Shown here piece after piece: positions 14,120 to 43,639 of a stretch of 49,885 nt of DNA (the first letter of the stretch is position 1; the number at the start of each line of letters is the position of its first letter). The DNA lies in contig JAKPQU010000268.1 of assembly GCA_029555925.1 (NCBI GenBank), positions 1 to 49,885 on the forward strand. The letters are read 5' to 3'. The stretch comes from Bacillota bacterium. Its GTDB lineage: Bacteria > Eremiobacterota > SpSt-956 > JAKJGF01. Under the pieces are notes generated by a model. That model was not told the DNA's origin. It made no database searches and saw only the letters and a list, made by a program, of their open reading frames with translations. Position numbers and translations under genes: made by a program.

Positions 14120-17100
14120 AGGTTCCTCCATTCTGTGAATATTCTGCTGGAAACAGAAAATCTCTTTACAGGGAACACATGAAGAAATATGCTGAAAAAG
14201 AGTATGATGGAACTCCACGTATAAACAACAGAAGGATAGATAACAGGATTTAAGCCGATTAAACTATGTGACACAATAATTTCTCTCGAAACTGTACCGA
14301 ATAAAAACGGAATAGTTGTGAATTCTTCCGTATTTATAGTATGAGGGAAAAAAGTGGACAATATAATAGAAATAATAAAAGAATAAGTAAGGGTAAGTAA
14401 TAATACCGGAAGAGCACCTGAGATAATATGAAGAGGATGCAATTTTTCCATATGGGCTCTGTTCCTTCTGGCAGACACATCGATTGTTAAATAAAATAAC
14501 GAAAGACCAATAGAAAAAATAAACATAAGGAAGTATAAACTATCATGAATTTTAATCATGAAATTGAAACCTCCCCCTGTTATTACAAGCAGTATAGCAC
14601 AACCTGCTACTTTACCTGCCATAGGAGGAAGTAAAAAGTCTATATCTGAAAAATTAATCTTCCTGAACCCATATAATATATAGTATAAAACCATAAATGC
14701 TAAAGAACCGTACAGAGAAATAGAAAATAAATATGTAAATAATACATTCCCCAGGGACTGTTCATAAAGACCTGTTAACGGTGGCAATAAAAAACAGAGC
14801 AAGAATATTGCCGTGATAACTGACGTAAAGACTGTAGAACCGAATTTGCTTCCTGTAACCTTCTTTTCTCTAAAAGGTGAAGGAGGGCTGCAGGATAATC
14901 CCAGGCTGTCTTTATGAGTCTTATCTATATATCTCAGATGAAAAGCTCTGTCAAAATCATATCTGGCATAATAACTGGCTACTATAAAATCTCTCACTTC
15001 TTTAAAATGGAATATATTTTTTTCTTTTCCGGAAAGAAGTTGTAAATAATTACACAGATCCTTTCTGTAATAAATCTTTTCTTTTAATTCTTCTATGTTA
15101 TCTGTCTTTATGAGATTAAAAACCTCGTTCCATCTATCCAGAAGCTTGACAAGGCTGAATGTATCGTCAGGTTCTATTTCTTCTTCTTTTCCCCTGCATA
15201 ACTTTCCTGCAAACAGATCGACAACTATATGTTTTAATAAAGGATCTAATATGAAATCACCTGTTAATATCCTTATATTTTCAACAGAACGAATAGAATT
15301 TTTAAGGTGAATTATTCTATCCTCTACCTGTGCGAAGGTACAGCCAAGAAAATAATCTACTTCACTTCTCAATTCATCTATATAAGAGATTACCTTTAAA
15401 CACATATGCTCATTTTTCATTCTCTCTTTATCCAGTTCTATATTATACTGAAAAGATCTGGAGCCATATTTACTTTCAACCAGGGAAAAACCATTCGTTT
15501 CAAAAGCACTGTATAAGGCATGGAAGAGTTTTCCTCTTTCCTGTAATTCATGAAGTTTTTCCGAAAGTCTGTTTAAATTATCTGTGCTTCGTGCCAGTTC
15601 TAAAAGTACTATATAGGCTTCAAGACGGGCGAAATTTACAGAATATTTATTTTTCCAGTCCTTCAATTTCTGAGTAAAGGTATATATCTGTTCCGGAGCA
15701 GGTAATTTTTTAAGTACATAAATATAGGAATCTAAAAGGGAAATAAGCATATCAGGAGCTTTCTTTTTAATAAATTCCTCTTTTATAAAAGAAAAAATCT
15801 CACTTCTTCCCCCGTGTTCGATCATTTTTATGACAAGATCCAGTATTGCCTGAAAATCATCCTTTTTATGGAGTTTTATAAAATATTCTGCAAAAACAGA
15901 GGCTAAAACCTTAAGAGATTTTATGTCCTGGAGGAATAATATTCTGCAGAAAAGGTTTATAAAGGCACTTCCTTCAGATGAATCTTCATATAAATCCTTT
16001 AAAAAGTGAACTATCTCATATTTTTCCGGCACTTTTGCCACGGTAAAGATAATTTCTGCAACTTCTTTTTGAAGTACCGACTTTATATTCTTCCATATAT
16101 TACTGTCCAGAAGTTTACTTTCTTTAAGTCTCAGGTATTGATTATATATAAAGAGCAGATCCCGTCTTTCAATTTCTTTTCTTAAATCCTGAAATAATTT
16201 AACGGTTTTTTCAATCATATGAAGCAAATTATGAAAAATTTTCTCAAGAGCCAGAGATATAATCGGATCAAAAACGTAAAGACCTTTTTTCTGAACCAGG
16301 TTTGCCAGATAATCTATTTCTCCCATAAAATTCATGAGATTTTCTTCCTGCATAGTAAGAGAAAAATTCTGATTTGGTAAAAGACAGCTTTTCAGTTTCT
16401 TTTTCATGCTATCCATATGAGCGGACAGATCATGTAAAAACTCTTTTTTATATTCAGAAGATACACCTGCAGTAACTTCGTCAAATTTGAAATTTATCCG
16501 TTCCATTTCCGTATGTAATGTACTTATGGAAAGGCTGCCGGAAAGTGAGAGCAGATCATGGCAGGTACGATAGAAAATATTTTTCTTTACCTTTTCTTCT
16601 TTTACGGCAGTAATAGTTTTAAGGATCTGAAAAATTTTAACATCTGACTTTTTTAAATCTTCCATATCCCTTGAGAATTCGGAAAAACTTTTTACCAGAG
16701 TAAGAAACCATGAAGGCCACGGAAATTTCCTGGAAATAATCTCACTGTACAGTTTCCAGAGAGAACCTTCATAGGACATTACTCGCAGATATTCTATAAT
16801 TTTAGCAGTATTACCGTTATTGATGAGAGAAACAAATATATTATAAAGTCCTTCTCCAAGGCTATGTACTATTACAGGATGGCCGGATTGAAAAGCAGGT
16901 TTAAGAAGAGCAAAATTGTTATCTCCCGATAATATCTGAATTGCTCCGTATTGAAGAACAGGGCATGTAGAATCTTCTATTAAAATTTTAAGATTTTTCT
17001 GCCAGAATCTATCGGTAAGATTTTTTTCTATTCTCTCTATTAACATATTATATCTAGGGTCTAAATAATACTTTATAGTATGAAGCAATTCATTAATCTG

Positions 17101-18696
17101 TGCAGTAAATTTCTTTCTGAAAAGAGATGTTATTATTTTTATTACAGAATAATAATTTCTGTCATAAGGTTTGCCTCCATAAAAAAGTTCATAAAAAATA
17201 TTATCGAATTCTTTTATCAATTTGAATAGGGCTTCAAGAGTTTCAGGAGACCAGGGAGAAGATTGAATAAGTTCGAGCCTATCTTCAAGGAGGAAAAATT
17301 TTTCCATAAGCCCGTATTCAAAGGGAATTTTTTCTTCTATCTCTTTAAAACATTTACAAAATCTATTTTTACAGAGCAGGTTTGTTTCTCTTAAGGAAAA
17401 AATAACTTCTACAGTCAGTTCCTGCGGCAATTCATAATTTAAACATTCCATTATATCTTCATAAGCTTTATGAATACCGGCATGACAGAATTCCTGACAT
17501 ACCTTCAGAAAAACCCTGTATAGTTCAAAATCCTCTTCTTTTCCCGAATATTTTAAAAAAGGAAGACCTGGTACAAGTTCTTTATTTTTAAATTCCACAA
17601 AACTTCTGTAAAATAAGTCAGCCTGTATAAGTCTTTCAGATTTTGGCAGGTGGCTCAAATATAATAAAGAATCGGAAAAACTTCTGACGATATTGCATAT
17701 ATGCCCCGGGCAATCTCTTTCTATTATCGCAAAAGCTGTTTCAGGAGAAAAAACATGAAAAGCTCCGAGAGAAACAACAGAAAAATCGGATCTCTTAATA
17801 CCCAGAGTCTGCCTTATTTTTTCCCGTTCTTTATCTCCCTGTGCTTCATAATAACTTTTCAAAGAATCAATATAAAATTTAAATTCTTCTTTATCTGAAG
17901 ATAAAAACTCGCCTGCTCCTGATATGGCAGATAATTCGGAAGAACTATTGCCGCTGTGTAAAAGCTTCTTCCAGTGATGAAAAAATTTCTCTTCCTTTGT
18001 TGAAAGACAGGCAAGAACTCTGGATGTAAGATTACTTACTTCAGATGACGGGGAATTTCGAAGATATTCTATGAGACTGATTATTTCTTCTATCACTTCT
18101 TCCTCATGTTTCTCCGCAACAGAAGGTTCTGAAGGCGGTGATTCAGTGATGGCAGATTCTGAGACCACAGGCTCAGAGACAATATCTGAAACTAAACCTT
18201 CTGCCGCCATAGGCTCTGAGACAACAGATTCTGATAGTAATGACTCCGATAAAGAAATTTTTGACTCCACAGGTTCGGAAACCGGTGGTTCAGAGGTAAC
18301 AGATGATATAGCTTCCATATCCGTGGAAGCCAGATCATGTTTCAGAGAAATAAATTCTTTATCACCGTACAGATTAATTATTTCTCCTGATGAACATTCT
18401 TCTACTGAAGTTCCGGCATGTTCTTTTATGTGTTTATCTTCAAGAAAATAAAGTATCTTCAGAAAGAAAAGCTTTTTATTCTGATCATTTTTCATCCATT
18501 CTTTAACAGATGGTAAAAGATCGAAAATCAACAAACTGGAACATATTTTTCTGTAAAGATTATATCTTTTTTTCCAGCTTAACGTTTTATGAAGATAAAA
18601 AAGCAAATCAAGCTGTTTCTGAGGTTCAAATATAAGTTTTTCTGTTAGCAAATTCTCTGTTTCAATTAAGGTCATGTTCATAACTTTTACAGGCAT
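14116..18696 (-). CDS. Very large membrane protein with helical repeat region, function unknown
   Basis: 1,526 residues as drawn from the first ATG. The start is uncertain because no good ribosome-binding site is seen; ATGs a few codons in are possible. Residues about 135-195 form a low-complexity linker of S-E-P/V-V-S-E repeats. The bulk (200-1270) is charged and helical, with no recognised family, and looks like a solenoid. The C-terminal quarter (about 1285-1515) holds roughly six to seven hydrophobic segments, so the protein is anchored in the membrane with a large soluble N-terminal part. The last codons contain the ribosome-binding site of the kinase-receiver gene, and the stop overlaps its start. 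The tight coupling suggests that this protein is a membrane sensor or scaffold for that kinase. Confidence 0.8.
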   Translation of the reverse strand: MPVKVMNMTLIETENLLTEKLIFEPQKQLDLLFYLHKTLSWKKRYNLYRKICSSLLIFDLLPSVKEWMKNDQNKKLFFLKILYFLEDKHIKEHAGTSVEECSSGEIINLYGDKEFISLKHDLASTDMEAISSVTSEPPVSEPVESKISLSESLLSESVVSEPMAAEGLVSDIVSEPVVSESAITESPPSEPSVAEKHEEEVIEEIISLIEYLRNSPSSEVSNLTSRVLACLSTKEEKFFHHWKKLLHSGNSSSELSAISGAGEFLSSDKEEFKFYIDSLKSYYEAQGDKEREKIRQTLGIKRSDFSVVSLGAFHVFSPETAFAIIERDCPGHICNIVRSFSDSLLYLSHLPKSERLIQADLFYRSFVEFKNKELVPGLPFLKYSGKEEDFELYRVFLKVCQEFCHAGIHKAYEDIMECLNYELPQELTVEVIFSLRETNLLCKNRFCKCFKEIEEKIPFEYGLMEKFFLLEDRLELIQSSPWSPETLEALFKLIKEFDNIFYELFYGGKPYDRNYYSVIKIITSLFRKKFTAQINELLHTIKYYLDPRYNMLIERIEKNLTDRFWQKNLKILIEDSTCPVLQYGAIQILSGDNNFALLKPAFQSGHPVIVHSLGEGLYNIFVSLINNGNTAKIIEYLRVMSYEGSLWKLYSEIISRKFPWPSWFLTLVKSFSEFSRDMEDLKKSDVKIFQILKTITAVKEEKVKKNIFYRTCHDLLSLSGSLSISTLHTEMERINFKFDEVTAGVSSEYKKEFLHDLSAHMDSMKKKLKSCLLPNQNFSLTMQEENLMNFMGEIDYLANLVQKKGLYVFDPIISLALEKIFHNLLHMIEKTVKLFQDLRKEIERRDLLFIYNQYLRLKESKLLDSNIWKNIKSVLQKEVAEIIFTVAKVPEKYEIVHFLKDLYEDSSEGSAFINLFCRILFLQDIKSLKVLASVFAEYFIKLHKKDDFQAILDLVIKMIEHGGRSEIFSFIKEEFIKKKAPDMLISLLDSYIYVLKKLPAPEQIYTFTQKLKDWKNKYSVNFARLEAYIVLLELARSTDNLNRLSEKLHELQERGKLFHALYSAFETNGFSLVESKYGSRSFQYNIELDKERMKNEHMCLKVISYIDELRSEVDYFLGCTFAQVEDRIIHLKNSIRSVENIRILTGDFILDPLLKHIVVDLFAGKLCRGKEEEIEPDDTFSLVKLLDRWNEVFNLIKTDNIEELKEKIYYRKDLCNYLQLLSGKEKNIFHFKEVRDFIVASYYARYDFDRAFHLRYIDKTHKDSLGLSCSPPSPFREKKVTGSKFGSTVFTSVITAIFLLCFLLPPLTGLYEQSLGNVLFTYLFSISLYGSLAFMVLYYILYGFRKINFSDIDFLLPPMAGKVAGCAILLVITGGGFNFMIKIHDSLYFLMFIFSIGLSLFYLTIDVSARRNRAHMEKLHPLHIISGALPVLLLTLTYSFIISIILSTFFPHTINTEEFTTIPFLFGTVSREIIVSHSLIGLNPVIYPSVVYTWSSIILFFSIFLHVFPVKRFSVSSRIFTEWRNL

Positions 18697-18798: not shown

Positions 18799-20139
18799 TT
18801 ATGCCGAAGGACCGGAAAAATTAAACCTTTCTATTTTCATGGCAGGACATGCCACATTAACTCCCCATTTGCCTGCACTCTTTAAATTACACGACAGTTC
18901 GGACACATGTGAAAATGCATCAAGTATACTGTTATTGTAACGCATATTATTAACTGCTTTTGTTATTCGTCCGTTTTCCACAAGGAATACGCCATCCCTT
19001 GTAAGACCTGTAACAATGGTTTTCTTCGGATCAACTACATTATCATACCAGAATCTTGTAATCAAAATTGCCCTGTCGGTATTTTCGATTATCTCTTTCA
19101 GGTTTTTTTCTCCCGGCATAAGTACAAGGTTAAGAGGGAGAGGGCCCCTTGTACTGGGAGGAGGAAGGGCATGCCCCGTAGACTCTTTTCCATCTTTAGC
19201 GGCTGTCTTCATATCATAAACGACATTTTTTGCCACACCTTTTTCTACAAGGGTTATCTTCTGTCTCGGTACACCTTCGAAATCAAAAGGTAATCCGAGA
19301 ACTTCTCTTGTGGAGAAATCATCTATAATAGTAATATTATCTCCCATAAGTTTTGCCCCTATTTTACCTGCCATAAAGCTTCTACCTTCCTGATAGGACA
19401 GGGCTCCGAAGCCCAGGGAATTAAGAAACATAAGTAAACTTCCTGCAGCTCTTTCTTCCAGAATTACAGTATATTCACCGGGAGGTAATTCTACAGGTTT
19501 TTTATTAAGAAGGGCTTTTTCTATAGCCACATCGGCAAGATCATTCACATCTATTTCACCGATAGATGTTCCGTAATGATCTGACCATCCTGTCCCTCCT
19601 TCCGCATCTATTGCAGTAAGGGTGAAAGCAGCATCGGTCCAGGAATGATAGGTAAAATTCCCCCTGGAATTCATAAGAGTCACCACATTATCTCCGAAAG
19701 AAATTGTTCCTGCGGCAGTGAGATCATCTTTTTTACATTTATTTACTACCTTCTCGACCTCTCTGGCAGTCTCTTCCGGGGTAAAATTAATGGTTCTGTC
19801 ATCATATGCATCCTTAATTTCCGTATACTCTTTACCGGGAAACAGAGGAACTGCGTTCGGATCATCTAACTGATTGCGGAGAACCTCTTCTGCTTTCAAT
19901 ATTACATCTTTTAGATATTCACCGTGAAAAACATTGCATGAAGCGATTCCTACTTTCTTACCCTTTATTACCTTTGCAGTAATACTGTAATCTTTCTGAA
20001 CAACATTCTGATGAATGTAATTATTGGCAAATCTTGTAAGCCAGTGTTTTCCTCCTGTAATAAAAACCTCTACTTCATCACATGAGGAATGGCCGATTGC
20101 TTCCTTAAGTATTTTTTGTGCTCTTTCCTTACCCAGCAT
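18799..20139 (-). CDS. tldE: TldE/PmbA family subunit of the TldD-TldE metallopeptidase
   Basis: 446 residues from the ATG at 20139. That ATG overlaps the end of tldD by 11 bases and has AGGTG six bases before it; a GTG three codons earlier is also open. Length and sequence fit the PmbA/TldE family: an N-terminal substrate-binding part, and a C-terminal part containing G-L-T-R-D-G-V-F near the end. It lacks the HExxxH zinc motif, as TldE proteins do. With TldD it forms a heterodimer that degrades unstructured peptides and is used in microcin B17 maturation and antitoxin CcdA turnover in Escherichia coli. Here it lies downstream of a Pup-like/PafA-like pair, suggesting work on the modifier or on tagged peptides. 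Confidence 0.92.
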   Translation of the reverse strand: MLGKERAQKILKEAIGHSSCDEVEVFITGGKHWLTRFANNYIHQNVVQKDYSITAKVIKGKKVGIASCNVFHGEYLKDVILKAEEVLRNQLDDPNAVPLFPGKEYTEIKDAYDDRTINFTPEETAREVEKVVNKCKKDDLTAAGTISFGDNVVTLMNSRGNFTYHSWTDAAFTLTAIDAEGGTGWSDHYGTSIGEIDVNDLADVAIEKALLNKKPVELPPGEYTVILEERAAGSLLMFLNSLGFGALSYQEGRSFMAGKIGAKLMGDNITIIDDFSTREVLGLPFDFEGVPRQKITLVEKGVAKNVVYDMKTAAKDGKESTGHALPPPSTRGPLPLNLVLMPGEKNLKEIIENTDRAILITRFWYDNVVDPKKTIVTGLTRDGVFLVENGRITKAVNNMRYNNSILDAFSHVSELSCNLKSAGKWGVNVACPAMKIERFNFSGPSA

Positions 20140-21583
20140 AACCGACACCTACCTTTACATTTCTAAATCTGGCATAAGAAACACCATGACCTACTCTTGC
20201 AACCTGTCCCGGCTGTCCTTTGCCGCAATTAGGAGTTCCCCAGACCTGCCAGGAATTTTTATCAGAGATAGCATCACAGGAATTCCAGAACTCGGGAGTA
20301 ATTCCCATATAGGTAGGATTCTTCACTATACCGACAATTTTTCCGCCTTTAATCTCCCATCCTATTTCCGTACCAAACTGGAAATTCAATCGTTTATCAT
20401 CTATGCTCCAGCTTCTGTTATCACAAAGAAGAAGTCCGTCTTCCGTATCTGCCAGGAGATCTTCAAATGATATATCTCCAGGAAGAAGATTGATATTTGT
20501 CATTCTTATAAGAGGAAGATTATTCCATCCGTCTGCTCTCATAGAACCGCTGCTCTCTCTGTTTATTACGGGCGCTGTTTCTCTTGAAGTAAGATAACCT
20601 CTGAGTATACCGTCTTTGATAAGATAATTGCACCCTGCAGGAACACCTTCGTCATCATAGCCAAAAGTCCCCAGTCCTCCCGGACTTGTGGCATCTGCTA
20701 CAATATTGACTATAGATGAACCGTAACGGAAGTTATCAAGTTTTTCCGTAGTAAGAAAACTCATACCTGCATAATTTGCTTCCATTCCCAGAACCCTGTC
20801 CAGTTCCACTGCGTGACCGCATGACTCATGAACCTGGAGAGCAAGCTGACTCTGACCGAGTATGATAGTCTTTAATCCTGAAGGACACTGTTTTGCCGTT
20901 AAAAGAGCAACTGCTTCTTCTGCAATCTGCCGTCCATGTTCTTTTAATTTAAGGTCTTTCACCATTTCATAACCTGCCGTATTAAACTGTCCTCTGAAAG
21001 ACGAAGGATATGATCTGACCTGCATTTCCTGGTCATTTAAAGCAATGGCACTTATACCGGAACCTGTATGGAGTATATCCTGTTCTATAAAAGAGCCTTC
21101 ACTGTTGAGGAACATTTTTTCTTCTCTTTTAAGATCCATATGACCGGTCGTAATTTTTATACCCTTTACTTTCCTCATTTCTTCCTCTGCATCCAGAAGA
21201 AAATTAATCTTTTCATCGAGAGGTACAGAGAAAGGATCTATTATCCTGGGAGAAACCCACTTATCACACACTTTATTCAAAGATGATAAATTCACCTTTG
21301 TATGAGCAAGACTTGCGCTGGCTTTTCCAATCTCTATCGCTCTTCTGGCTGCAATTTCAACCTTGCTGGATTTAAGATCAGGATTTCCCGCAAATCCCCA
21401 GGCACCATCCACCAGAACCCTTATACCCATGCCCACGTCTGCATCTCTCCTGACACCGTTTACAGAACCATTTTTTATATCTATAGACTCTGTTATGGTT
21501 CTTATAACTCTCACATCACAGTAACTGGCTTTTTCACTGAGAGCTACTTCCAGCGCCAGTTCTGCTAATTTTTTTTCATCCAA
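20129..21583 (-). CDS. tldD: TldD zinc metallopeptidase
   Basis: 484 residues from a TTG start at 21583 (AAGGAGGT eight bases upstream). The active-site motif H252-E253-S-C-G-H257 is the HExxxH signature of TldD, followed by E-L-D-R-V-L-G. The glycine-rich C-terminal part also fits the family. It is the catalytic subunit, and it overlaps tldE by 11 bases, so the two are made together. The 137-base gap to the PafA-like gene upstream carries two heptamer arrays and a GC-rich hairpin, but no promoter I can see, so co-transcription is likely but not certain. Confidence 0.94.
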   Translation of the reverse strand: MDEKKLAELALEVALSEKASYCDVRVIRTITESIDIKNGSVNGVRRDADVGMGIRVLVDGAWGFAGNPDLKSSKVEIAARRAIEIGKASASLAHTKVNLSSLNKVCDKWVSPRIIDPFSVPLDEKINFLLDAEEEMRKVKGIKITTGHMDLKREEKMFLNSEGSFIEQDILHTGSGISAIALNDQEMQVRSYPSSFRGQFNTAGYEMVKDLKLKEHGRQIAEEAVALLTAKQCPSGLKTIILGQSQLALQVHESCGHAVELDRVLGMEANYAGMSFLTTEKLDNFRYGSSIVNIVADATSPGGLGTFGYDDEGVPAGCNYLIKDGILRGYLTSRETAPVINRESSGSMRADGWNNLPLIRMTNINLLPGDISFEDLLADTEDGLLLCDNRSWSIDDKRLNFQFGTEIGWEIKGGKIVGIVKNPTYMGITPEFWNSCDAISDKNSWQVWGTPNCGKGQPGQVARVGHGVSYARFRNVKVGVGYAG

Positions 21584-21605
21584 AACTTCAGACCTCCTTA
21601 ATAAT

Positions 21606-21637
21606 CGTGACGCGTAACGCGTGACGAGTGACGGGTG
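21606..21637 (+). repeat. GTRACGC heptamer array before tldD
   Basis: GTGACGC, GTAACGC, GTGACGA, GTGACGG in tandem on the plus strand, beginning 23 bases before the tldD start codon (antisense to tldD). Confidence 0.85.
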
Positions 21638-21694: not shown

Positions 21695-21735
21695 ACTCAC
21701 TATTCACGTCTCACGACTCACTATTCACTCCCATT
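21695..21735 (-). repeat. Degenerate GTRANNN heptamer array at the 3' end of the PafA-like gene
   Basis: On the minus strand the units read GTGAATA, GTGAGTC, GTGAGAC, GTGAATA, GTGAGTT. The first unit overlaps the last codons and stop (gaa tag) of the PafA-like gene, so the array supplies its C-terminal residues. Confidence 0.75.
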
Positions 21736-23700
21736 ACCATGGGAAATATTTTTTTTCAGTGAATCTATATAATTTCTGTCTTTTTCATCAAGTTCCTTCT
21801 GAAAAGGTTCCAGAAAGTAAATGTATCTGCCATGGTCACTTATTAATACATCATCCCACCCTATCATTGCAGACAGAACATTTGCCGAAAGAAATTTTAC
21901 AAGATACCCTCTTATAGCGGCTCTTGTATCAGAGGGAGGATTTAATTTAGCATTCTGTATATCTTCATCACAGGCCACCCTTCTTATAAGGCCTGCTTTT
22001 AATAATTTATAATAATATCCGCTGTCTTTATTCAATTCATGATATTTTAAATCTATTTTCTGCAACTGACAGTAAATTAAAAATTTCTCTATAAATTCCC
22101 TGCAGGTAATAGCTTCAGTTTTTAAAAATGACATAAAACCTCTTCTGTTCCGGAAAGAAAGTTTTTCCTTTACAGCCGCAAGCAGTTCTTCTTCATCCAT
22201 AATATTACATTCTTCTTTAAACTTATCCTGAAAAAATTTAAACCATTTCAACATAGAGGAAGAAAAGGATATGTCTCCCATATCCCTCAGAGCTTCATTC
22301 ATTAAATCTTTTTTTGCTACCCAGTCAAGCTCCTTGTACAACAGGTGGGGATTGATGTCAAGAGAAGTAAGAATATTTTCCCAGAGCTGTAATAATTTCT
22401 TCGTTTCATCCGATAAATCTTCCGAAGGGAGATAAAATTTTTTTGCTTCTTCCAGGTAATATCTCTGAATATCAAGGGAACTCATAGAAGTTCCGTTTCT
22501 GAGAGGTATCTTTTTTTTCATTGTAAGATCCAGAGAAAATTCTCTTAAAGCCCTGATAGTATCTTTCGGAGTCAGATCTTTAAAGGGATGGCCTTCTTCT
22601 ATCATTCTTATGATAAGATCAGTAACACCGGTATTTATATAAGTAACAAATTCATTCATATTAGAATCACAGTACATTAAATGGAGTCTTTTTTCTCTTT
22701 TAAAAACAGAACGAGGGCTCTTTATAAAATTTTTAAGACTGAATACAGGTTTGTAATAATCATCCCAGAATATGGTGCATACAGTTTTTATTGCTTCTGA
22801 TTTTTGAGAAAGTTCAAAAGGTATTCTCATTTTTTCACGGGGCGGAAGTTTATCCAAAAGCCTTCCGCTGCCGGTAAAAATAACCCTTGTAAGTAGATAT
22901 GGCGTAAGATATTTATTAAATTCCGTAAAAACTGTCTGTCTGAGAAAAAATCCGCACGAATAGGCCCAGCATATAGTGGAAAATCTGAAAATTTCTCCGA
23001 ATATGCGTGTAAAAAGGCTGGGCCTCGGACTTACCATAGTTTTAAGTATATCCAGAATAAATTCTCCGAGCTTTTTGATGGTTTTCAGGTTAATTCCGAT
23101 AGCAGAAAGAGGTAAATTGATAAGACAGAGTAAAACAAACAGAAGGGATAGTATGAGCATAAAAACAAGAAGGGGGAGGTTAAAAATAATAATAACTATT
23201 AAAAATATGGAAAAGAAAAAAAATACTGTAAGAAATAAAAATATCTTTTTATATCCAGTGACAGGATCGTCTACAAGGTAATTTTCATGGGTTCCGTAAA
23301 CATTACCTTTACTGTCTCTACTGTTTTTACCAAAAAAAATAGAGCCTCTAAAACCCTTCTCGTAAAACTTTTCTTCCAGCTCATGTCTGATTTCTTCGAG
23401 AATTTCGTCACTGGCTTTGCCATAAATAGAAACATCACGACAGTTGCTGCATTCCGGTGTGGAACACTCTACCACTCCTTCAAGTAAAGCATTCAAGCAG
23501 GCTTCATGATGAAGCCTGCCACCGTTCTGCATAAAAACTCCCGCTTTCACTTCCTTGGAATGTAAAACACTGTAATGAGATGCCACTACATCTTTAAGGA
23601 CATGAAATAATTCATATCTGGACGGAATAAAAGAGCTTTTTACATCGGGCGCAATTATAACTGCATACTCTGTTTCCAGACCAAAGATTCGCTTTTTCAT
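21721..23700 (-). CDS. pafA: PafA/Dop-family Pup ligase with inserted transmembrane hairpin
   Basis: 659 residues, longer than usual PafA or Dop (about 450-500). Family signatures in order: G-L-E-T-E-Y (Glu9, Glu11), N-G-G-R-L, C-S-T-P-E-C, G-T-H-E-N-Y-L (138-142), G-S-G-R-L, L-S-Q-K-S-E, C-D-S-N-M-N-E, D-T-I-R-A-L-R-E, S-L-D-I-Q-R-Y-Y-L, K-E-L-D-W-V-A-K, D-L-K-Y-H and P-S-D-T-R-A. In the known family this fold joins the C-terminal glutamate of Pup to target lysines (PafA) or removes or deamidates it (Dop). Two hydrophobic helices (about 154-173 and 175-202) are inserted just after H-E-N-Y-L, so the enzyme is probably membrane-bound. The position of the catalytic aspartate appears to be Glu66. 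The gene begins 22 bases after the Pup-like gene. Ligase rather than deamidase is inferred, because the modifier already ends in Glu. Confidence 0.88.
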   Translation of the reverse strand: MKKRIFGLETEYAVIIAPDVKSSFIPSRYELFHVLKDVVASHYSVLHSKEVKAGVFMQNGGRLHHEACLNALLEGVVECSTPECSNCRDVSIYGKASDEILEEIRHELEEKFYEKGFRGSIFFGKNSRDSKGNVYGTHENYLVDDPVTGYKKIFLFLTVFFFFSIFLIVIIIFNLPLLVFMLILSLLFVLLCLINLPLSAIGINLKTIKKLGEFILDILKTMVSPRPSLFTRIFGEIFRFSTICWAYSCGFFLRQTVFTEFNKYLTPYLLTRVIFTGSGRLLDKLPPREKMRIPFELSQKSEAIKTVCTIFWDDYYKPVFSLKNFIKSPRSVFKREKRLHLMYCDSNMNEFVTYINTGVTDLIIRMIEEGHPFKDLTPKDTIRALREFSLDLTMKKKIPLRNGTSMSSLDIQRYYLEEAKKFYLPSEDLSDETKKLLQLWENILTSLDINPHLLYKELDWVAKKDLMNEALRDMGDISFSSSMLKWFKFFQDKFKEECNIMDEEELLAAVKEKLSFRNRRGFMSFLKTEAITCREFIEKFLIYCQLQKIDLKYHELNKDSGYYYKLLKAGLIRRVACDEDIQNAKLNPPSDTRAAIRGYLVKFLSANVLSAMIGWDDVLISDHGRYIYFLEPFQKELDEKDRNYIDSLKKNISHGNGSE

Positions 23701-23722
23701 AATCTATTACTGAAATAAAAAA

Positions 23723-23875
23723 CTATTCCCCGCCTCCCGGAGCCTGCCAGTTCTGGATATATTTAAGAGGTTCCTTCTGGCTGTCTTTTATTATTTCAGC
23801 AAAAATAGATACTACCTGACCTTTAGTATCTATTTCATGATCCACTACAATTTTCTCTTCCGTAATTGTACTCAT
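23723..23875 (-). CDS. pup: Pup-like protein modifier ending Gly-Gly-Gly-Glu
   Basis: 50 residues from the ATG at 23875, which has AGGCAGGTGA nine bases upstream; the frame is open for another 13 codons without such a site. The C-terminus is A-P-G-G-G-E. Pup proteins are short (about 60 residues), intrinsically disordered or helical, and end in Gly-Gly-Gln or Gly-Gly-Glu, the last Glu being attached to target lysines. The body here is helical and contains F-A-E-I-I-K and Y-I-Q-N-W, with no close similarity I can claim to actinobacterial Pup beyond the ending. The call rests on size, C-terminus and position directly before a PafA/Dop-family gene. Ending in Glu, it would need no deamidation. 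A promoter is visible upstream at 23996-24024. Confidence 0.72.
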   Translation of the reverse strand: MSTITEEKIVVDHEIDTKGQVVSIFAEIIKDSQKEPLKYIQNWQAPGGGE

Positions 23876-23995: not shown

Positions 23996-24024
23996 ATTAT
24001 AACAAAAAATTCTGCCAAGTTCAA
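23996..24024 (-). promoter_or_regulatory. Promoter of the pup-like/pafA-like operon
   Basis: On the minus strand: -35 TTGAAC (24019-24024), 17-base spacer, -10 TATAAT (23996-24001) with TGT extension. It is the best sigma70-type promoter in the window, 121 bases before the pup-like ATG, leaving a leader of about 115 bases. Confidence 0.8.
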
Positions 24025-24183: not shown

Positions 24184-27100
24184 ATGAAAAAAAACTGTAC
24201 CACCTGTGGATATGAAAATATAATAACAGCTAAATTCTGCAATAACTGTGGAAGTGAACTGAAGAAACGGTTTCATACCGGGAAACCTCTGCCGGAAGGA
24301 ACAATAATTGACAACCGCTATAAAATCATCACTGCCGTAAAATCTTATGAGAGAGGTAATCTTTACAGGGCTTCAGATAATAAACTGGAAAAATTATATT
24401 CAATAAGAGAATTTTTCAGCTCCTGTGAACATATAGAGGTAACAATACTATATGATAAAGAACAGATAAATCTGCTTTCTGTGCTGGAAAAACCTGATAC
24501 GAGAGCGGAATATTTTACTGCCGGTAACTCCTATCATCTTCTCATGCATTTTGCAGAAGGGAAAAAATTAGGATATACAACTGATTTAATGGACAAAGAA
24601 TCTATTAAAAAATTACTCGCTCTGTCAGAAGAAACAGAATTTTTTTTAAGTAAATCAAAATTAATGGCCCCTCTGAGCCATGTCTCTCTGCCTGCCATAA
24701 GAGATTATTTTATCTTTAACGGACGATACTATCTGGTTTTTGATTTTTTAGATGGCGAAGATATGGAAACTATTCTGGCAAGAGACGGAAAAACAGGATT
24801 TCCCGAAGAAAAAGTAATAGAATGGACAAAACAGATTTTAGAAGGACTGACCTATCTTTCCAGAGAACATCCCGGCCTTTCTTATAATAATATCACATGT
24901 GAAGATATTTTTCTGGCCAGACATGAACAGATCCGTTTAATAAATCATATGTCAGATATAAAAGAAGGAAATTTTTCCCGTAATACCGGTACCATCATAT
25001 ACAGACTCCTTACAGGTGCAGACTCTATAACAAATAAACCTCTTAAAACTATTATTCCTTTCATATCAGACGATCTGGAAAGAATAGTAAACAGGGCTTT
25101 AAAGGGAGAATATACAGTCCCTGAAGAAATGCTCCGCGAACTGTCATCAGGCCAACTGCTGAGCTGCAGTAATCAAATAAAATATATATTTGATCTTAAA
25201 TTTGGTTCATGGGGTACAGGTAAAGGCCTGTTCAATCGCCCCGGGGGACTTACTGTAGATGTAACGGGTAATGTCTATGTAGCAGATACCCATAATGATT
25301 GCATACAGAAATTTGACCCTTCAGGAAACTTTCTTACATCATGGGGAAAAAAAGGAACAGGTAAAGGTCAATTCAATCTTCCCTTCGGTGTGACTGCCGA
25401 TAAAGAAGGAAATATTTATGTTGTAGATACTCATAACCATCGTATACAAAAATTTGATCCATGGGGCAATTACATAAGAGAATGGGGAAGTGTCGGACAG
25501 GGAGACGGTCAGTTCAGTGTCCCTTCAAAAATAGCTATCGATCGGAAAGGATATATTTATGTAGCGGACACAAAAAATCATAGAATAGAAAAATTCGACG
25601 GTGCCGGAAATTTTATAACAAAATGGGGCACCTTCGGCCATGATGAAGGACAGTTCAATTATCCCAGGGGCATTGCAGTAGACCGCCTGTGTTATGTCTA
25701 TGTGGCTGACACAAGGAATAATCGCATACAAAAATTTAATGAAACAGGGGATTTTCTGCTGTCATGGGGGGAAACAGGCTCCATGAACGGGCAGTTCAAA
25801 GGACCTGAAGCAATAACAGTAAACAGGGAAGGACAGATTTATGTAGCCGATTTTGATAATCAAAGAATACAGCAGTTCGATAGTAACGGTAATTTTATCA
25901 CTTTATTCGGCTCAAAAGGCACTGAAAAAGGGCAGTTTAAAGGCCCCGGAGATATAGCGGTAAACAGTGCCGGTGATATATATGTGGCAGATACGGAAAG
26001 CCATTCTGTTCAAAAATTTATTCCTGTAGTGGAAGAAAAAAACAAAATAATACCACCTGAAATAATAAGAAAAAGTCCTTCTGTAAAAAATTATAGCAAA
26101 TGTCTCTTCAGGGAAAAATGGGGCATCCATGGCTACGGAGACGGTCAATTCATATGGCCATTTTCTATGGCAATAAATAAAAAAGGACATATTTATATAA
26201 CAGATTGCGGGAAACATAATATTCAAACATTTGATTTATCAGGAAATTTTATAAAAAAATGGGGTATGTGGGGTGAAGGCCCGGGCGAGTTTATATGTCC
26301 TCATGGCATAACTGTGGACAGTAAAGACAATGTTTATATAGCAGATTTTGCAAATCACAGAATAGAAAAATTTGACTGTGAAGGAAATCTTATAACAACA
26401 TGGGGAAACAGAGGTCCTCTCGAAGGGCAATTTAATTACCCTGAAGGTATTGTGTCAGACAGAGACGATAATATCTATGTTTCAGATACGGAAAATCACA
26501 GGATAGAAAAATTTGACTGTGAGGGACATTTTATTGCAGCTTTCGGTAAAGAAGGAGGAGAGGAGGGACAGTTCAGATATCCTTCCGGTATTGCAATAAA
26601 TAATGAAGGGGAAATATATGTTGCAGACAGAGGAAATTATAGAATACAGAAATTCGATTCACAGGGAAATTTTATATTACAGTACGGTATAAAAGGCAGC
26701 GGGAACGGACAGTTCGATCAGCCCTGTTCTGTTACTACAGACCGGGAAGGAAATGTTTATGTTTCAGACTGGAATAATAACAGAATTCAACAATTTGATA
26801 GAGACGGCAATTTCCTTATGACTTTCGGTTCTGCCGGGTTCAATGACGGACACTTTAAAAAGCCTTCCTCAATTTTAATAGATTTTGCAGGGAATCTATA
26901 TGTTGCAGATACATTAAATCATCGCATACAGAAATTTACCATCCTTACACCTTCAGCAGATAGTGAAAAAGAGACTCCTCCTCCTTTAAAATATGTATTT
27001 ACAAATAAATGGGGAGAAGAAGGAACAGACAATTCCTGTTTCGATTATCCTTACGGTATATGTACAGATGCTATCGGTAATATTTATACAGGAGATACCT

Positions 27101-28809
27101 TCAATCACAGAATACAAAAATTCGATTCTTCCGGAGAATTCATAACAGCCTGGGGAACATGCGGTTCTGAAGAAGGAGGGCAGTTTGTCAATCCTTTCGG
27201 AGTATGTGTGGATACGGAAGGAAATATCTATGTGGCAGACAGCGATAATAACTGTATCCAGAAATTTTCGTCATCTTTTAATTTTATTCAAAAATGGGGT
27301 ACCGAAGGCTCTCTGGAAGGTGAATTTAAAATCCCGAGCGGTGTGGCAGCAGATTTTACAGGAAATATTTATGTTACAGACAGTGAAAACCACAGGGTAC
27401 AGAAATTTGATTGTAACGGAAATTTCATAAGAGCGTGGGGAAAAGAAGGAACAGAACAGGGAATGTTTAACGGACCTTTTGGTATTGCCGTTTCTTCGGA
27501 AGGATATATTCATGTGGCAGATACGCTTAACAACAGAATCCAAACCTTTGACAGTAATGGAACCTTTATAAGAGAATTTGGAGTCCAGGGAAAAGAAAAA
27601 GGCGAGTTTGAATCGCCTGAAGGTGTATGTGTGGACAGCCATGGGAATATATATGTAGCAGATACGGAAAATCACCGTATACAGAAATTTGACAGGGAAG
27701 GCAATTTTATAACACTCTGGGGAGAAGAAGGGGATGATGACGGTCAGTTCAAAAATCCTTTCGGTATCGCAGCAGACTCTATGGGAAATATCTATGTGGC
27801 AGATACGGAAAATCAGCGTATACAGAAATTTTCACCTGTCCCGGAAAAAGAAAAAGAAGAGATCTGCGAAGAAATCATACCGGTTGAAATTAAAGCAGCA
27901 GAAGAGATGCTGGTAATGGAAGAGACCATTGAAGAACAGGAAATCATACCGGTAGAAAACTATATATTTCTAAAACAATGGGGTAAAGAGGGAAAGAATG
28001 AAGGTGAATTCGATAATCCCTATGGAATCACTACAGATGATACGGGAAATATATATGTAGCAGACACATTCAATCACTCCATTCAAAAATTTGACAGTAA
28101 CAATAATTTTGTAACAAAATGGGGCACATGCGGTTCAGAAAACGGTCAGTTCAACAACCCGTTCCGCGTAGCAGCAGACAGCAGGGGACATATTTATGTG
28201 GCAGATACTATGAACCATAGAATACAGAAATTTGACTCCCATGGTAATTTCCTGCAAAAATGGGGGAAGCACGGCACAGGAGAAGGAGAATTTAATAATC
28301 CTTTTGGCATTGCTATTGACGGAGAAGGCAATATTTATATATCTGATACATTCAATCACTCAATAGATAAATTTTCTGCTGACGGAGTATTTATTGAAAG
28401 ATGGAAGACTGATTATACAGGCGAAATAGACATTAGATTTCCCAGGGGAATTGCAATAGATAAAAAAGGATTTATTTATGTAGTTGACTGGGATAATAGT
28501 TGCATACAAAAATTTGATCTAAAAAGCAATTTTATTACAAAATGGGGGAAACGTGGTTCACAGGACGGAGAATTCAATAATCCTTTCGGTATTGCCGTAG
28601 ATGAAGAAGGATTCATTTATGTGGCAGACTGGGATAATCATCGCATTCAGAAATTCGACAAAGATGGTAATTTTATCACAAAATGGGGCAATCTTGGCTC
28701 GGAAGAAGGCCGGTTCAACCGCCCCGGAGGAATTGCCGTGGATAACATGGGACATATATATGTGGCAGATACGAGAAATCATCGTATACAGAAATTTATG
28801 AAACAGTGA
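24184..28809 (+). CDS. Zinc ribbon-pseudokinase-NHL protein with four six-bladed propellers
   Basis: 1,541 residues. The zinc ribbon at residues 5-24 is C-x2-C-x13-C-x2-C. Residues about 40-320 follow a kinase layout, but the catalytic loop reads Y-N-N-I-T-C-E-D-I and the D-F-G position reads I-N-H-M, so this is a pseudokinase. Residues 341-1539 contain 24 NHL repeats of about 47 residues (W-G-x-x-G-x-x-x-G-x-F-x-x-P-x-G-I-A-V-D ... N-H-R-I-Q-K-F). Linkers split them into four sets of exactly six (about 341-612, 645-917, 941-1215, 1264-1539), i.e. four predicted six-bladed beta-propellers. NHL propellers bind proteins or RNA. No signal peptide or membrane helix is seen. It is divergent from the pup-like operon. 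The start is supported by GGGGAG about eight bases upstream. Confidence 0.9.
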   Translation: MKKNCTTCGYENIITAKFCNNCGSELKKRFHTGKPLPEGTIIDNRYKIITAVKSYERGNLYRASDNKLEKLYSIREFFSSCEHIEVTILYDKEQINLLSVLEKPDTRAEYFTAGNSYHLLMHFAEGKKLGYTTDLMDKESIKKLLALSEETEFFLSKSKLMAPLSHVSLPAIRDYFIFNGRYYLVFDFLDGEDMETILARDGKTGFPEEKVIEWTKQILEGLTYLSREHPGLSYNNITCEDIFLARHEQIRLINHMSDIKEGNFSRNTGTIIYRLLTGADSITNKPLKTIIPFISDDLERIVNRALKGEYTVPEEMLRELSSGQLLSCSNQIKYIFDLKFGSWGTGKGLFNRPGGLTVDVTGNVYVADTHNDCIQKFDPSGNFLTSWGKKGTGKGQFNLPFGVTADKEGNIYVVDTHNHRIQKFDPWGNYIREWGSVGQGDGQFSVPSKIAIDRKGYIYVADTKNHRIEKFDGAGNFITKWGTFGHDEGQFNYPRGIAVDRLCYVYVADTRNNRIQKFNETGDFLLSWGETGSMNGQFKGPEAITVNREGQIYVADFDNQRIQQFDSNGNFITLFGSKGTEKGQFKGPGDIAVNSAGDIYVADTESHSVQKFIPVVEEKNKIIPPEIIRKSPSVKNYSKCLFREKWGIHGYGDGQFIWPFSMAINKKGHIYITDCGKHNIQTFDLSGNFIKKWGMWGEGPGEFICPHGITVDSKDNVYIADFANHRIEKFDCEGNLITTWGNRGPLEGQFNYPEGIVSDRDDNIYVSDTENHRIEKFDCEGHFIAAFGKEGGEEGQFRYPSGIAINNEGEIYVADRGNYRIQKFDSQGNFILQYGIKGSGNGQFDQPCSVTTDREGNVYVSDWNNNRIQQFDRDGNFLMTFGSAGFNDGHFKKPSSILIDFAGNLYVADTLNHRIQKFTILTPSADSEKETPPPLKYVFTNKWGEEGTDNSCFDYPYGICTDAIGNIYTGDTFNHRIQKFDSSGEFITAWGTCGSEEGGQFVNPFGVCVDTEGNIYVADSDNNCIQKFSSSFNFIQKWGTEGSLEGEFKIPSGVAADFTGNIYVTDSENHRVQKFDCNGNFIRAWGKEGTEQGMFNGPFGIAVSSEGYIHVADTLNNRIQTFDSNGTFIREFGVQGKEKGEFESPEGVCVDSHGNIYVADTENHRIQKFDREGNFITLWGEEGDDDGQFKNPFGIAADSMGNIYVADTENQRIQKFSPVPEKEKEEICEEIIPVEIKAAEEMLVMEETIEEQEIIPVENYIFLKQWGKEGKNEGEFDNPYGITTDDTGNIYVADTFNHSIQKFDSNNNFVTKWGTCGSENGQFNNPFRVAADSRGHIYVADTMNHRIQKFDSHGNFLQKWGKHGTGEGEFNNPFGIAIDGEGNIYISDTFNHSIDKFSADGVFIERWKTDYTGEIDIRFPRGIAIDKKGFIYVVDWDNSCIQKFDLKSNFITKWGKRGSQDGEFNNPFGIAVDEEGFIYVADWDNHRIQKFDKDGNFITKWGNLGSEEGRFNRPGGIAVDNMGHIYVADTRNHRIQKFMKQ

Positions 28810-28942: not shown

Positions 28943-31843
28943 CTATACATTTAAATTATCTGTGTTCAATTCTTCCATATCCTGTATAAGGTCTAGTTCT
29001 TCCGTAAGTTCTTTTGAAGTAATTTCCTGGGTAATAAGAGGTATCTGTAAATTCCCGGAACAGGGATTAACAAATTCATGCCTGCAGGTCTTGCAAAACT
29101 TCGCAAATACTCTGTTTTTATTTTTACATTCAGGACATTCCCTGTATTCACTTGCAATAGAAGGAAGTTGTTTAAAAAGACCGAGGCCGAGAACCTTTCT
29201 TACATTGCCTCCACAGGTATTACAAAATTTTGCTGTAATTCTGTTTATAGTATTACATGTGAGACAAAAACTTGCCATTTCTATAAAAGTAACACCACAG
29301 GATTTACAGATTTTTGCACGCATGTTATTATGAGTATTACATTTCGGACACTTCAACATACTTACCGATTGTTCGACAATAACACGGGGAAGACTCAATC
29401 TTCTCAATTTTATCAGATCTTCTCCGCAGCATGTACAGAATTTGGCTGAAAATCTGTTTATACTGTTACAGGCATGACACATGTACATATAATGAGTTGT
29501 TCGTGGTCTCTCAGATTTTACAGATTTTTCTGTTAGAAATTCTTCAAAACTTTTATCCGATTTTTCTTCTACTTCAAATTCTACTTTTTCAATTAAATCT
29601 TCTTGTTTCTCTTCGGTTTTACATGCAGCAAATTTATCCGTTTCATCAGATTTTTTCTCCTCCACTGTTGCTGCGTCTTTCTTCTCTTCTTCTCCTGTCA
29701 TGGCTTTTTCAGGAAAAAATGTTGTCTGATTATATATTTTAAACAGCTCAAAATTATTCAGACTTACCACTTCATGTATTTCTTTCAAATCCTTAAAAGA
29801 GCTGATAATAAGCCCCATACATGACATAAGGGCAGTTTCTTTATCAAGAATAAATTGCTGTTTATTTACACTTGTCTTTCTATTTTTAGGAAGACAGAAT
29901 TTATATGAGTTAATCTTAAGTTGAGTATTGATATATTTATGGAGATCCCTGAACTGAATTGCACCGCCGCAGAAGATTATAGAGTCAAATTTATCCAGTC
30001 TGTAATCGGAGCCGAAATATCTCAGAACTTTCGAAATTTCTGTAGCCCAGTCCTTTACATGCAGAATTAAAAGGTGAAAAAAGTTAGTCTTCATGTTAGC
30101 CGTTATATTATCATATTTAATCTTTTTAAGTTCTTCCGCATGTTCATAATCTGCCATTTCAGCCTGCATAATGGCTTCAGTTAATTTATGTCCCCCGTAA
30201 GAGAAAGCAGATGTTTGAGCGAGCTGTCCGTCTTTCATAAGAGTCAATGAAGTACCTTCATCTCCCATATTTATTATAGCCACATTTTTCTTTTTAATCT
30301 CATCCTTTATTATAAGATTGGCAAGAACTGTCATTGCAAAAGGTTCTATAATTATATTATCAGGGTTAAGATCTGCCATGAATAAAGTCTTTCTGAGATT
30401 ATCATAGGCTTTTTTTCTCAGTGCTATTATTCTCACTTTCATGTCCCTGTCATTATCCTGTGAGGACAGTATTTTATAGTCAATATAGCATTCTTCTACC
30501 GGAAGAGGAATGATTTGTTTCAGATTGGACGATAACATAGAAGGGAGTTTTTCAGCAGAAGTGACAGGAACCTTCAGTGTTCTGATAGTGGAGCAATAAG
30601 GAGAAAGAGAAGCAATAATATCAAAATGTTCCTTATCTTTCAACATAGATTTTATTGTTTCACTCACTTTTTCAGGGTTAATTATCATACCGTTAGAAAC
30701 AGTATTATCAGGAGTTTTTTTACAGGAGATTAACTTTGGTCCCATATGACCTTTAGAATCAACACCCATCTGTAAAAGCTTTATCTCATGAGAGCCAATA
30801 TCCAGGCCAATTACTGTAGATAATTGTTGTTTGAAATGATTCAGATTTGATGTTTTTATTTTAAAAATATCGGACAGGAGCGGTTTCTCCGGAACTACAG
30901 GAGAAGTCTTCGATAATGTTTCTTCCTCTTTAGTCTTAGTCTCCGCTACTTTTACACTCAAAAGAGCTTCCTTAAATTCTTTTGCAGAAGAGAATCTGTT
31001 TTCTACTTCCATTTCCGTAGCTTTAGAAATTATCTCCTGAAGCCCTGAAGGGATATCATCACGATATTTATTCAGGGAAGGATATATAAAAAGATTCCCT
31101 TCCGATTCCGAAGGGTCATAACCTGTAAGAAGTCTGTGCAGAGTTGCGCCGAGAGCGAAAATATCGCTCTGAGGATAGGCTTTCCCGAGATACTGTTCAG
31201 GTGAGGCATAACCGGTCGTGCCGACACTTGTTCCCGGATCTCTTTTCTCAAACACATGAGCCACACCGAAATCTACCAGTACGACATGATTGTCTTCATG
31301 TTCCATAAGATTATCAGGTTTTACATCCCTGTGAATAATCATAGGTTTATAGGTATGAAGATAATCTAAAATATCACAGATCTGTATGCCCCAGTTAATT
31401 ACAAGTTCAGGGCTCAGATAATAATCATTCAACAGAGCATCATAGAGGATATCTTCGAGGGATTTGCCTTTCACATAATCCATAACCAGACAGTATCTTA
31501 TGTCTTCTACAAAATGATTCTGCACGACAGGCAGGCCCGGATGTCTTAATTTGGCAAGTATAACGGCTTCATCTTTGAATTTACTGATTGCATATGCTCT
31601 TTCTTCAGGATCTTTAAAATTATCTGTCATAATCTTAATGGTACATAATGTATCAAGATTATGATCCCTGGCAATATAGAGTATAGCCATACCCCCTGTT
31701 TCAAGGGTCTGAATAATTTCATATCTGCCACTGTGAAGTAATACACCGGGTTCCAGTGTGAGGGGAATGTTGTTATATCCGCAGAACTGGCAAAATACAG
31801 ATTCGCTGGTAATTTCTTTACCACAATAAATACAGCTGGACAA
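28943..31843 (-). CDS. Zinc ribbon-Ser/Thr kinase-PilM-like-zinc ribbon fusion protein
   Basis: 966 residues from a TTG start with GGGAGG eight bases upstream. Residues 4-21 are a zinc ribbon (C-x2-C-x10-C-x2-C). Residues 40-310 are a complete Hanks-type kinase (catalytic Asp173 in H-R-D-V-K-P-D-N, then D-F-G and G-T-T-G-Y-A-S-P-E). Residues about 342-680 match the PilM/actin-like ATPase fold (G-L-D-I-G-S at the start, I-I-N-M-G-D-E-G-T-S in the middle, I-I-F-C-G-G-A near the end). A Lys/Glu-rich linker leads to four more zinc ribbons (about 786-928), each a pair of C-x2-C knuckles. PilM normally sits under the membrane in type IV pilus assembly. Fused here to a kinase, it may be a phosphorylation-controlled pilus or secretion component. 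No other pilus gene is in view. Confidence 0.9.
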   Translation of the reverse strand: MSSCIYCGKEITSESVFCQFCGYNNIPLTLEPGVLLHSGRYEIIQTLETGGMAILYIARDHNLDTLCTIKIMTDNFKDPEERAYAISKFKDEAVILAKLRHPGLPVVQNHFVEDIRYCLVMDYVKGKSLEDILYDALLNDYYLSPELVINWGIQICDILDYLHTYKPMIIHRDVKPDNLMEHEDNHVVLVDFGVAHVFEKRDPGTSVGTTGYASPEQYLGKAYPQSDIFALGATLHRLLTGYDPSESEGNLFIYPSLNKYRDDIPSGLQEIISKATEMEVENRFSSAKEFKEALLSVKVAETKTKEEETLSKTSPVVPEKPLLSDIFKIKTSNLNHFKQQLSTVIGLDIGSHEIKLLQMGVDSKGHMGPKLISCKKTPDNTVSNGMIINPEKVSETIKSMLKDKEHFDIIASLSPYCSTIRTLKVPVTSAEKLPSMLSSNLKQIIPLPVEECYIDYKILSSQDNDRDMKVRIIALRKKAYDNLRKTLFMADLNPDNIIIEPFAMTVLANLIIKDEIKKKNVAIINMGDEGTSLTLMKDGQLAQTSAFSYGGHKLTEAIMQAEMADYEHAEELKKIKYDNITANMKTNFFHLLILHVKDWATEISKVLRYFGSDYRLDKFDSIIFCGGAIQFRDLHKYINTQLKINSYKFCLPKNRKTSVNKQQFILDKETALMSCMGLIISSFKDLKEIHEVVSLNNFELFKIYNQTTFFPEKAMTGEEEKKDAATVEEKKSDETDKFAACKTEEKQEDLIEKVEFEVEEKSDKSFEEFLTEKSVKSERPRTTHYMYMCHACNSINRFSAKFCTCCGEDLIKLRRLSLPRVIVEQSVSMLKCPKCNTHNNMRAKICKSCGVTFIEMASFCLTCNTINRITAKFCNTCGGNVRKVLGLGLFKQLPSIASEYRECPECKNKNRVFAKFCKTCRHEFVNPCSGNLQIPLITQEITSKELTEELDLIQDMEELNTDNLNV

Positions 31844-35726: not shown

Positions 35727-35810
35727 GTCGTGACGCGTGACGCGTGACGCGTTAATCCCTGCGCATCACGCATTACGCTTTACGCATTACGAGGTCATTA
35801 TTTATGGATA
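35727..35810 (-). repeat. Composite heptamer repeat element, copy 3 (inverted)
   Basis: Close reverse-complement match of 8-101: GTGACGC three times, the spacer taatccctgcg, then GCATCAC, GCATTAC, GCTTTAC, GCATTAC and the shared flank gaggtcattatttatggata. Hairpin-forming. Confidence 0.87.
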
Positions 35811-37456: not shown

Positions 37457-37485
37457 AAAAGTACCTCATGATGAATTATGAGAAT

Positions 37486-37522
37486 CGTGACACGTGACGC
37501 GTGACGCGTGACGCGTGACGGG
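37486..37522 (+). repeat. GTGACGC heptamer array before the beta-CASP gene
   Basis: GTGACAC, GTGACGC three times, GTGACGG in tandem; the most regular array in the window. It lies 30 bases upstream of the beta-CASP start codon, antisense to that gene. Confidence 0.9.
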
Positions 37523-43585: not shown

Positions 43586-43609
43586 TGTTAATACAACTCC
43601 TTTTTGAAT

Positions 43610-43639
43610 CGTGACGCGTGACGCGTGACGGGTAATCAG
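43610..43639 (+). repeat. GTGACGC heptamer array before acnA
   Basis: GTGACGC, GTGACGC, GTGACGG, then GTAATCA, antisense to acnA, starting 25 bases before its start codon. Confidence 0.85.

Follow-up and report, generated by a model that had tools for sequence, protein, structure and literature searches.

Do two adjacent genes from an uncultured bacterium make up a protein-tagging system that acts at the membrane with a single enzyme? The genes lie on the minus strand of contig JAKPQU010000268.1 (assembly GCA_029555925.1), all 49,885 nt of which are referred to here as the window, and consist of a 50-residue frame, 22 bases and then a 659-residue frame. An initial annotation, made from the sequence, took them for a small modifier ending in GGGE and a membrane-inserted enzyme of the PafA/Dop family. 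Both frames were recovered at these positions among the open reading frames (ORFs), and translation gave the GGGE C-terminus. Comparison of the sequences reveals the genes and their pairing, the membrane insert, a glutamate signature in the enzyme and, in related genomes, partners that go unrecognised, from which we consider it probable that the gene pair is a self-contained, one-enzyme membrane pupylation system. The earlier interpretation is thereby partly supported, and Glu66 of the enzyme and a downstream TldD/TldE pair are additions to it.

Membership of the larger protein in the family of Pup ligases was evident with Pfam (Pup_ligase, PF03136, E 3.2e-86, 290 bits against a cut-off of 25). 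The closest named protein is P0002 from Candidatus Eremiobacterota (89% identical), and identity is 66% to the enzyme of locus L001 (labelled Bacillota), 34-36% to members from Xenobia and 29% to Wallbacteria. The proposed membrane insertion was borne out by two strongly hydrophobic segments of 19 residues (mean hydropathy 3.2 and 3.1), located in a 130-residue stretch that corresponds to only 21-23 residues in 18 soluble relatives. An insert is carried by all 50 membrane-type enzymes and by none of the 18 soluble ones; that of the window enzyme has about 110 residues. Its predicted helices begin at residue 150, directly past the strand with the [HQ]x[NH] motif (the HENY strand), which here reads HEN (residues 138-140). 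Separately, one genome (G032) holds two membrane-type enzyme/modifier pairs (L083 and L084), both with modifiers ending in PAEGE, and its second enzyme has an additional hydrophobic segment beyond the usual insert.

The pairing of modifier and enzyme was examined across loci from a scan of genome contigs. At least 80 loci were obtained, among which L001-L021 and L029 are of the membrane type; the remaining 58 were taken as soluble by frame length, and 10 of these were checked. Together with L081, L083, L084 and the window this gives 26 membrane-type loci, and in 24 of them the best match of a leave-one-out modifier profile directly preceded the enzyme gene in the same orientation. These matches reached at least 15 bits in 23 loci and were weak (5.6 bits) in L006, with next-best matches of at most 8.1 bits; L011, one of the two loci lacking a match, begins at a contig end. 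In a simpler test on L001-L021, an upstream Glu tail was present for 19 of 21 membrane-type enzymes vs. 1 of 212 other ORFs (at least 200 aa), using a tail pattern chosen after examples had been seen and same-strand frames of 25-319 codons (stop to stop) ending at most 400 nt upstream. The modifiers of L005 and L012 were missed by a separate first tail scan and recovered by the profile, which also found that of L081, a locus outside the tail-scan list. Since the arrangement recurs in related loci it is not due to chance. That the enzyme instead makes a small-molecule or peptide amide in a GCS2-like manner, with the small frame being unrelated or a regulatory peptide, is very improbable.

An independent set came from the phylum to which G010 belongs (its locus L010 is labelled Planctomycetota): of 392 genomes searched, 38 were family-positive, and loci were obtained for 30 of these. 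These comprised five soluble tandem types, seven membrane-type loci from genomes already used and 18 new membrane-type loci. Among the latter, 12 had an upstream profile match of at least 10.7 bits, and in L115, L119 and L123 an upstream frame ending in GGGE was recognised by eye; L122 is cut. The frames in L119 and L123 end in TPGGGE and hold a hydrophobic segment some 17 residues long, and could possibly be a self-anchored modifier or a different small membrane protein. Ligase homologues lacking a GGE-ending neighbour had been named beforehand as evidence that would speak against the system; most homologues have such a neighbour (24/26 and 15/18 of the new loci), and three, described below, have none. 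Five genomes (L094-L098) each contain two insert-less family frames; Asp is kept at the catalytic position in the nine that were aligned, and the membrane-type modifier profile gave nothing over 2.6 bits in these loci.

The window modifier itself was matched by the leave-one-out Pup profile with 33.3 bits (E 5e-9), the next-best match anywhere in the window being 6.2 bits. An AlphaFold2 (AF2) model shows a helix at residues 3-33, a second at 36-41 and then a tail, with a mean predicted local distance difference test score (pLDDT) of 76.6. The view that the modifier is unlike actinobacterial Pup except at its end agreed with our searches. Pfam Pup (PF05639) matched 0 of 24 modifiers and 15 of 15 control actinobacterial Pups, and the NCBIfam Pup models also matched 0 of 24, in a scan that had no positive control. 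In the Pfam and NCBIfam scans of the window proteins, which were separate from these, the modifier query was truncated by 3 bases and thus had no initial Met. Profile-profile comparison with actinobacterial Pup gave E 7e-4 and a probability of 27% over 32 columns ahead of the tail, which is suggestive of common descent with known Pup and falls short of proof. A single-sequence search, also with a query lacking the start Met, returned seven matches, all close. Viral contigs gave no matches. Each of the 24 aligned modifiers has Glu as its C-terminal residue, where the first tail scan had accepted Glu or Gln and the profile was trained on Glu-ending sequences. As the modifiers already end in Glu, a deamidase would be unneeded. 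One detail has to be corrected: the GGGE remnant on lysines proposed for proteomics is not what trypsin would leave, because the last Lys/Arg of the modifier is K38 and the predicted tryptic remnant is the 12-residue YIQNWQAPGGGE.

The relation of the enzyme to PafA and Dop was analyzed in a tree of 67 enzymes with the insert removed, 49 of them membrane-type; L029, whose frame lacks the N-terminus, was omitted from the tree and from residue counts. A branch with 100/100 support separates all 49 from PafA and Dop. The PafA and Dop labels were assigned by length and place and not by family models, and neither label forms one tree group; L067, labelled PafA, groups with Dop-like rows and has a Dop-like spacing between GxExE and NG. 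Column 66 of the alignment is the only one with one residue in at least 80% of the PafA and Dop rows (Asp, 18/18) and a different one in at least 80% of the membrane type (Glu, 49/49, counts that include the near-duplicates P0006/L001, P0013/L002 and P0125/window). Asp occupies the position of D64 in Corynebacterium glutamicum PafA in all 10 PafA-labelled rows, and the window enzyme has Glu66 there. With 18 further membrane-type enzymes the count rises to 67/67 Glu, and 11 further soluble relatives (10 Asp, 1 Glu, the latter in L089) bring the soluble total to 28/29 Asp. On this alignment, Glu at the catalytic position is constant in the membrane type and is not confined to it. PMC3511204 proposes that the catalytic Asp, acting as a base, activates water or lysine, and the PafA-Pup crystal is described as made with D64N (PMC8599861).

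Altered active-site residues, together with the sporadic spread of the family (found in 3/148 and 38/392 genomes), might be taken as signs that the pair is a decayed remnant of pupylation. We find this extremely improbable, as both frames are intact, the main change is common to the whole group and 11 residues (G7, E9, E11, R272, D345, W440, D459, W460, K463, R597 and W615) are invariant in the 49 enzymes compared.

Are the usual partners of a Pup ligase present? This was surveyed in 15 related genomes, for which completeness is not given. A single family member, judged by place, was present in 13 of 15, with more in G002 and G007. PF00227 gave nine matches in 8 of the 15 genomes, and eight of the nine coincide with HslV matches over the HslV cut-off; by PF00227 there is no clear 20S proteasome in the 15 genomes, the bacterial 20S models not having been searched separately. 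No Mpa/ARC match exceeded the cut-off in any of the 15, and one control genome has one; matches below cut-off occur in all 15 and likewise in control genomes. In the window, no proteasome family was found among 26 distinct proteins scanned with Pfam, smaller ORFs being outside the scan. The Mpa/ARC model scored highest, though still below cut-off, on five frames (G002:C294, G003:C44, G007:C640, G008:C225 and G009:C347; 667-898 aa) that each have two AAA matches and look like double-AAA, Cdc48-like proteins. Contig G002:C217 (L089, 1845-6630) encodes one Dop/PafA-like and one PafA-like enzyme, the latter with Glu at the catalytic position and no membrane insert; it also encodes an Mpa/ARC-like AAA protein (548 aa) and a small frame that ends in QDSGE. 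L089 is a divergent soluble system, on a separate contig of a genome that also holds a membrane-type enzyme.

From these features we infer ligation, lysine acceptors, membrane substrates and a fate for the tag, as follows. The insert would keep the active site on the cytoplasmic side of the inner membrane, where the enzyme would use ATP to phosphorylate the side-chain carboxylate of the C-terminal Glu of the modifier, as PafA does, and the activated modifier would then be passed to a lysine on proteins in or near the membrane. A Dop-type deamidase or depupylase would take no part, because Glu is already the last residue of the modifier and most of the genomes surveyed have one family member. 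The tag may be a regulatory mark or may deliver proteins to another protease such as FtsH, because the 20S proteasome and Mpa/ARC go unrecognised in the related genomes. In this lineage that protease is perhaps the neighbouring TldD/TldE, which might trim or clear the small unfolded tag.

Several observations weigh against a membrane pupylation system of this kind. The proteasome and Dop survey covered the 15 related genomes. No upstream modifier was found by profile in L008, nor by profile and by eye in L113 and L120 of the new set. The ninth PF00227 match (G015:C94) is weak, at 28.8 bits, and was not assigned to HslV, and the Mpa/ARC-like proteins of G014:C48 and G002:C217 are near full length, at scores below cut-off. 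A profile search of the ligase against PafA and Dop, suggested by the initial annotation as a check, returned scores for both equivalogs (PafA TIGR03686, 238.5 bits; Dop TIGR03688, 205.9 bits), but both lie far below the curated cut-offs (551.3 and 492.3). Sequence and fold matches in the PDB are slightly better for Dop than for PafA. Finally, Lys323 replaces R193 of PafA and R227 of Dop (the 49 membrane-type enzymes have K in 29, G in 11 and R in 9), and Asp313-Asp314 stand in place of two alpha-loop threonines, residue numbers having been placed by counting along the enzyme-PDB alignment and Table 1 of PMC7947786. PafA R193A is listed as inactive and alpha-loop Thr mutants as slower in that source (PMC7947786).

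With Dop as its best PDB match, the enzyme might be a depupylase or a bifunctional ligase/hydrolase and not a plain ligase, and single-copy Planctomycetes homologues, reported as an outgroup, partly align with the Dop-loop (PMC7947786). We consider this unlikely. In 13 of 15 genomes it is the sole family member seen, and a pure hydrolase in that position would lack conjugates to work on. GxExE and NG are 47 residues apart in the window, which is also the membrane-type median; this spacing is 38 for most PafA rows and 67-104 for eight Dop rows, and there is therefore no Dop-loop of the usual length (about 40 residues). Furthermore, the Dop residues described as holding the phosphate (R227 and H241) and the Pup end (T217) (PMC8599861) correspond to Lys323, His340 and Asp313 in the window.

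A different acceptor is also conceivable. Atg8 lipidation provides a model for joining a modifier to a lipid, and the Pup-like modifier might in that manner be joined to a non-protein membrane amine, e.g. a lipid or envelope precursor that bears an amine. In favor of this are the catalytic domain with a membrane insert in 50/50 enzymes, the replacement of the acceptor-activating Asp by Glu, the different alpha-loop residues and the proteasome and Mpa/ARC that are not clearly recognised in 15 genomes. Characterised family members, however, act on lysine side chains, and the residue changes may merely tune the geometry; joining to a non-protein amine is highly improbable. Little probability likewise attaches to a third Pup-ligase branch, with Glu as base, a rebuilt acceptor pocket, neither Dop nor proteasome, and a modifier placed on a membrane amine as a Pup-based counterpart of Atg8 lipidation.

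If the membrane pupylation system is real, several bacterial phyla would carry out ubiquitin-like tagging at the membrane by means of a single enzyme and without a proteasome. A role for Pup without the proteasome would become testable, as would the question of how the enzyme works with Glu where Asp has been held to be catalytic in PafA and Dop.

The features of the locus are listed in Table 1.

Table 1. Positions of the gene pair and surrounding features in the window
Feature	Position	Strand	Basis
Pup-like modifier, 50 aa (50 codons + stop), ends PGGGE	23723..23875	-	ORF, leave-one-out Pup profile, AF2
Membrane-inserted Pup_ligase-family enzyme, 659 aa	21721..23700	-	ORF, Pfam Pup_ligase
Membrane insert of enzyme, about residues 146-254; predicted helices 150-200, 206-223, 229-254; two strong hydrophobic segments	22939..23265	-	Hydropathy, predicted model
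Glu66 codon, position of catalytic Asp (PafA D64, Dop D94)	23503..23505	-	Alignment
Promoter-like site TTGAAC-17-TATAAT, TG ahead of second hexamer	23996..24024	-	Consensus match only
Terminator-like stem within 3' end of modifier gene, T-rich stretch after	23728..23742	-	Consensus match only
TldD-like metalloprotease with HESCGH, probable later operon gene	20129..21583	-	Pfam PmbA_TldD domains, motif, L001 orthologue
TldE-like partner without HExxxH motif	18799..20148	-	Pfam domains, motif, L001 orthologue
Short multi-copy repeat in the ligase-TldD gap	21605..21636		Repeat comparison within window

The modifier ATG is preceded by AGGTG and 9 bases. Expression of both genes from one strong promoter, as first proposed, is plausible only: the promoter-like site matches 10/12 consensus positions, but eight such sites occur in the region vs. 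a shuffle mean of 9.7, i.e. they are not commoner than in shuffles.

Both downstream neighbours have PmbA_TldD domains. TldD has an HExxxH motif and TldE does not; here the TldD-like protein has HESCGH (residue 252) and its partner has no such motif. In L001 the TldD orthologue (79% identical) lies 20 bases past the ligase and is accompanied by a TldE orthologue (71%), whereas in the window the ligase-TldD gap is 137 bases and holds the short repeat. Among 22 other loci compared (L081, L083, L084 and the 18 new loci being outside the comparison), the adjacency found in the window recurs in L001 alone, and several additional TldD/E genes are present in G001. The TldD/TldE link thus looks lineage-specific. 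No widely shared operon partner was found in an ORF comparison of 22 loci and the downstream genes of 21, and frequently the following gene lies on the opposite strand. Further copies of the repeat lie between long ORFs near 68-99, 152-173, 35728-35749, 37483-37522 and 43607-43633. Large proteins are encoded nearby: divergent from the modifier gene, a 1541-residue protein (24184-28809) in which a zinc ribbon and a weak kinase-like stretch accompany 24 NHL repeats; a 966-residue fusion of a Ser/Thr kinase, a PilM-like domain and several zinc ribbons (28943-31843); and a 1526-residue protein with zero Pfam matches at E 0.001 (14119-18696).

How does the pair compare with known systems? With the actinobacterial Pup/PafA/Dop/Mpa-proteasome pathway it shares a ligase family of the glutamine synthetase (GS) fold and a small helical modifier with a C-terminal Glu or Gln. 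Unlike that pathway, the window enzyme has a membrane insert, Glu for the catalytic Asp and Lys for R193, its modifier falls outside Pfam Pup, and the related genomes are without a second family enzyme (13/15), Mpa/ARC over cut-off or a clear 20S proteasome. UBact of Gram-negative bacteria is a Pup-like modifier ending in GGE or GGQ outside Actinobacteria, with links to proteasome genes and to a soluble PafA. Our modifiers matched no model in the Pfam and NCBIfam scans, where the presence of a UBact model in the libraries is not established. UBact is mentioned in passing in PMC11354881.

In the open-access papers searched, pupylation and TldD do not occur together, and pupylation and Eremiobacterota only in a ribosomal tree paper. 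Among the open-access matches listed, with most subscription papers outside this scope, no published report of the Glu swap or of an adjoining TldD/TldE pair was found, and titles and abstract beginnings reported no experiments on the membrane Pup ligase class. That class goes back to Iyer et al. 2008, where Pup and Pup ligases with a transmembrane insert past strand 4 are described for Plesiocystis and Rhodopirellula, without proteasome linkage, and regulation of membrane-associated proteins is suggested (PMC2588565). The window agrees with it in the adjacent modifier with a G[EQ] end (here GGGE, 22 bases upstream), in the insert directly past core strand 4 and in the lack of linked proteasome genes (26 window proteins, Pfam). 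It has two strong segments in a predicted three-helix insert, where the paper gives four transmembrane segments, and a downstream TldD/TldE pair, where the paper gives a linked membrane-protein gene; the Glu swap goes unmentioned in the available part of that paper (PMC2588565). Judged by these features, the window is a member of the class predicted in 2008, and what is new at the sequence level is its occurrence in an Eremiobacterota-type lineage, the controlled recurrent pairing, Glu in place of Asp as a signature, tails that end only in Glu alongside mostly a single enzyme per genome, and the neighbouring TldD/TldE pair. The gene pair looks like a putative variant of pupylation, the bacterial counterpart of ubiquitin tagging, that operates without a proteasome.
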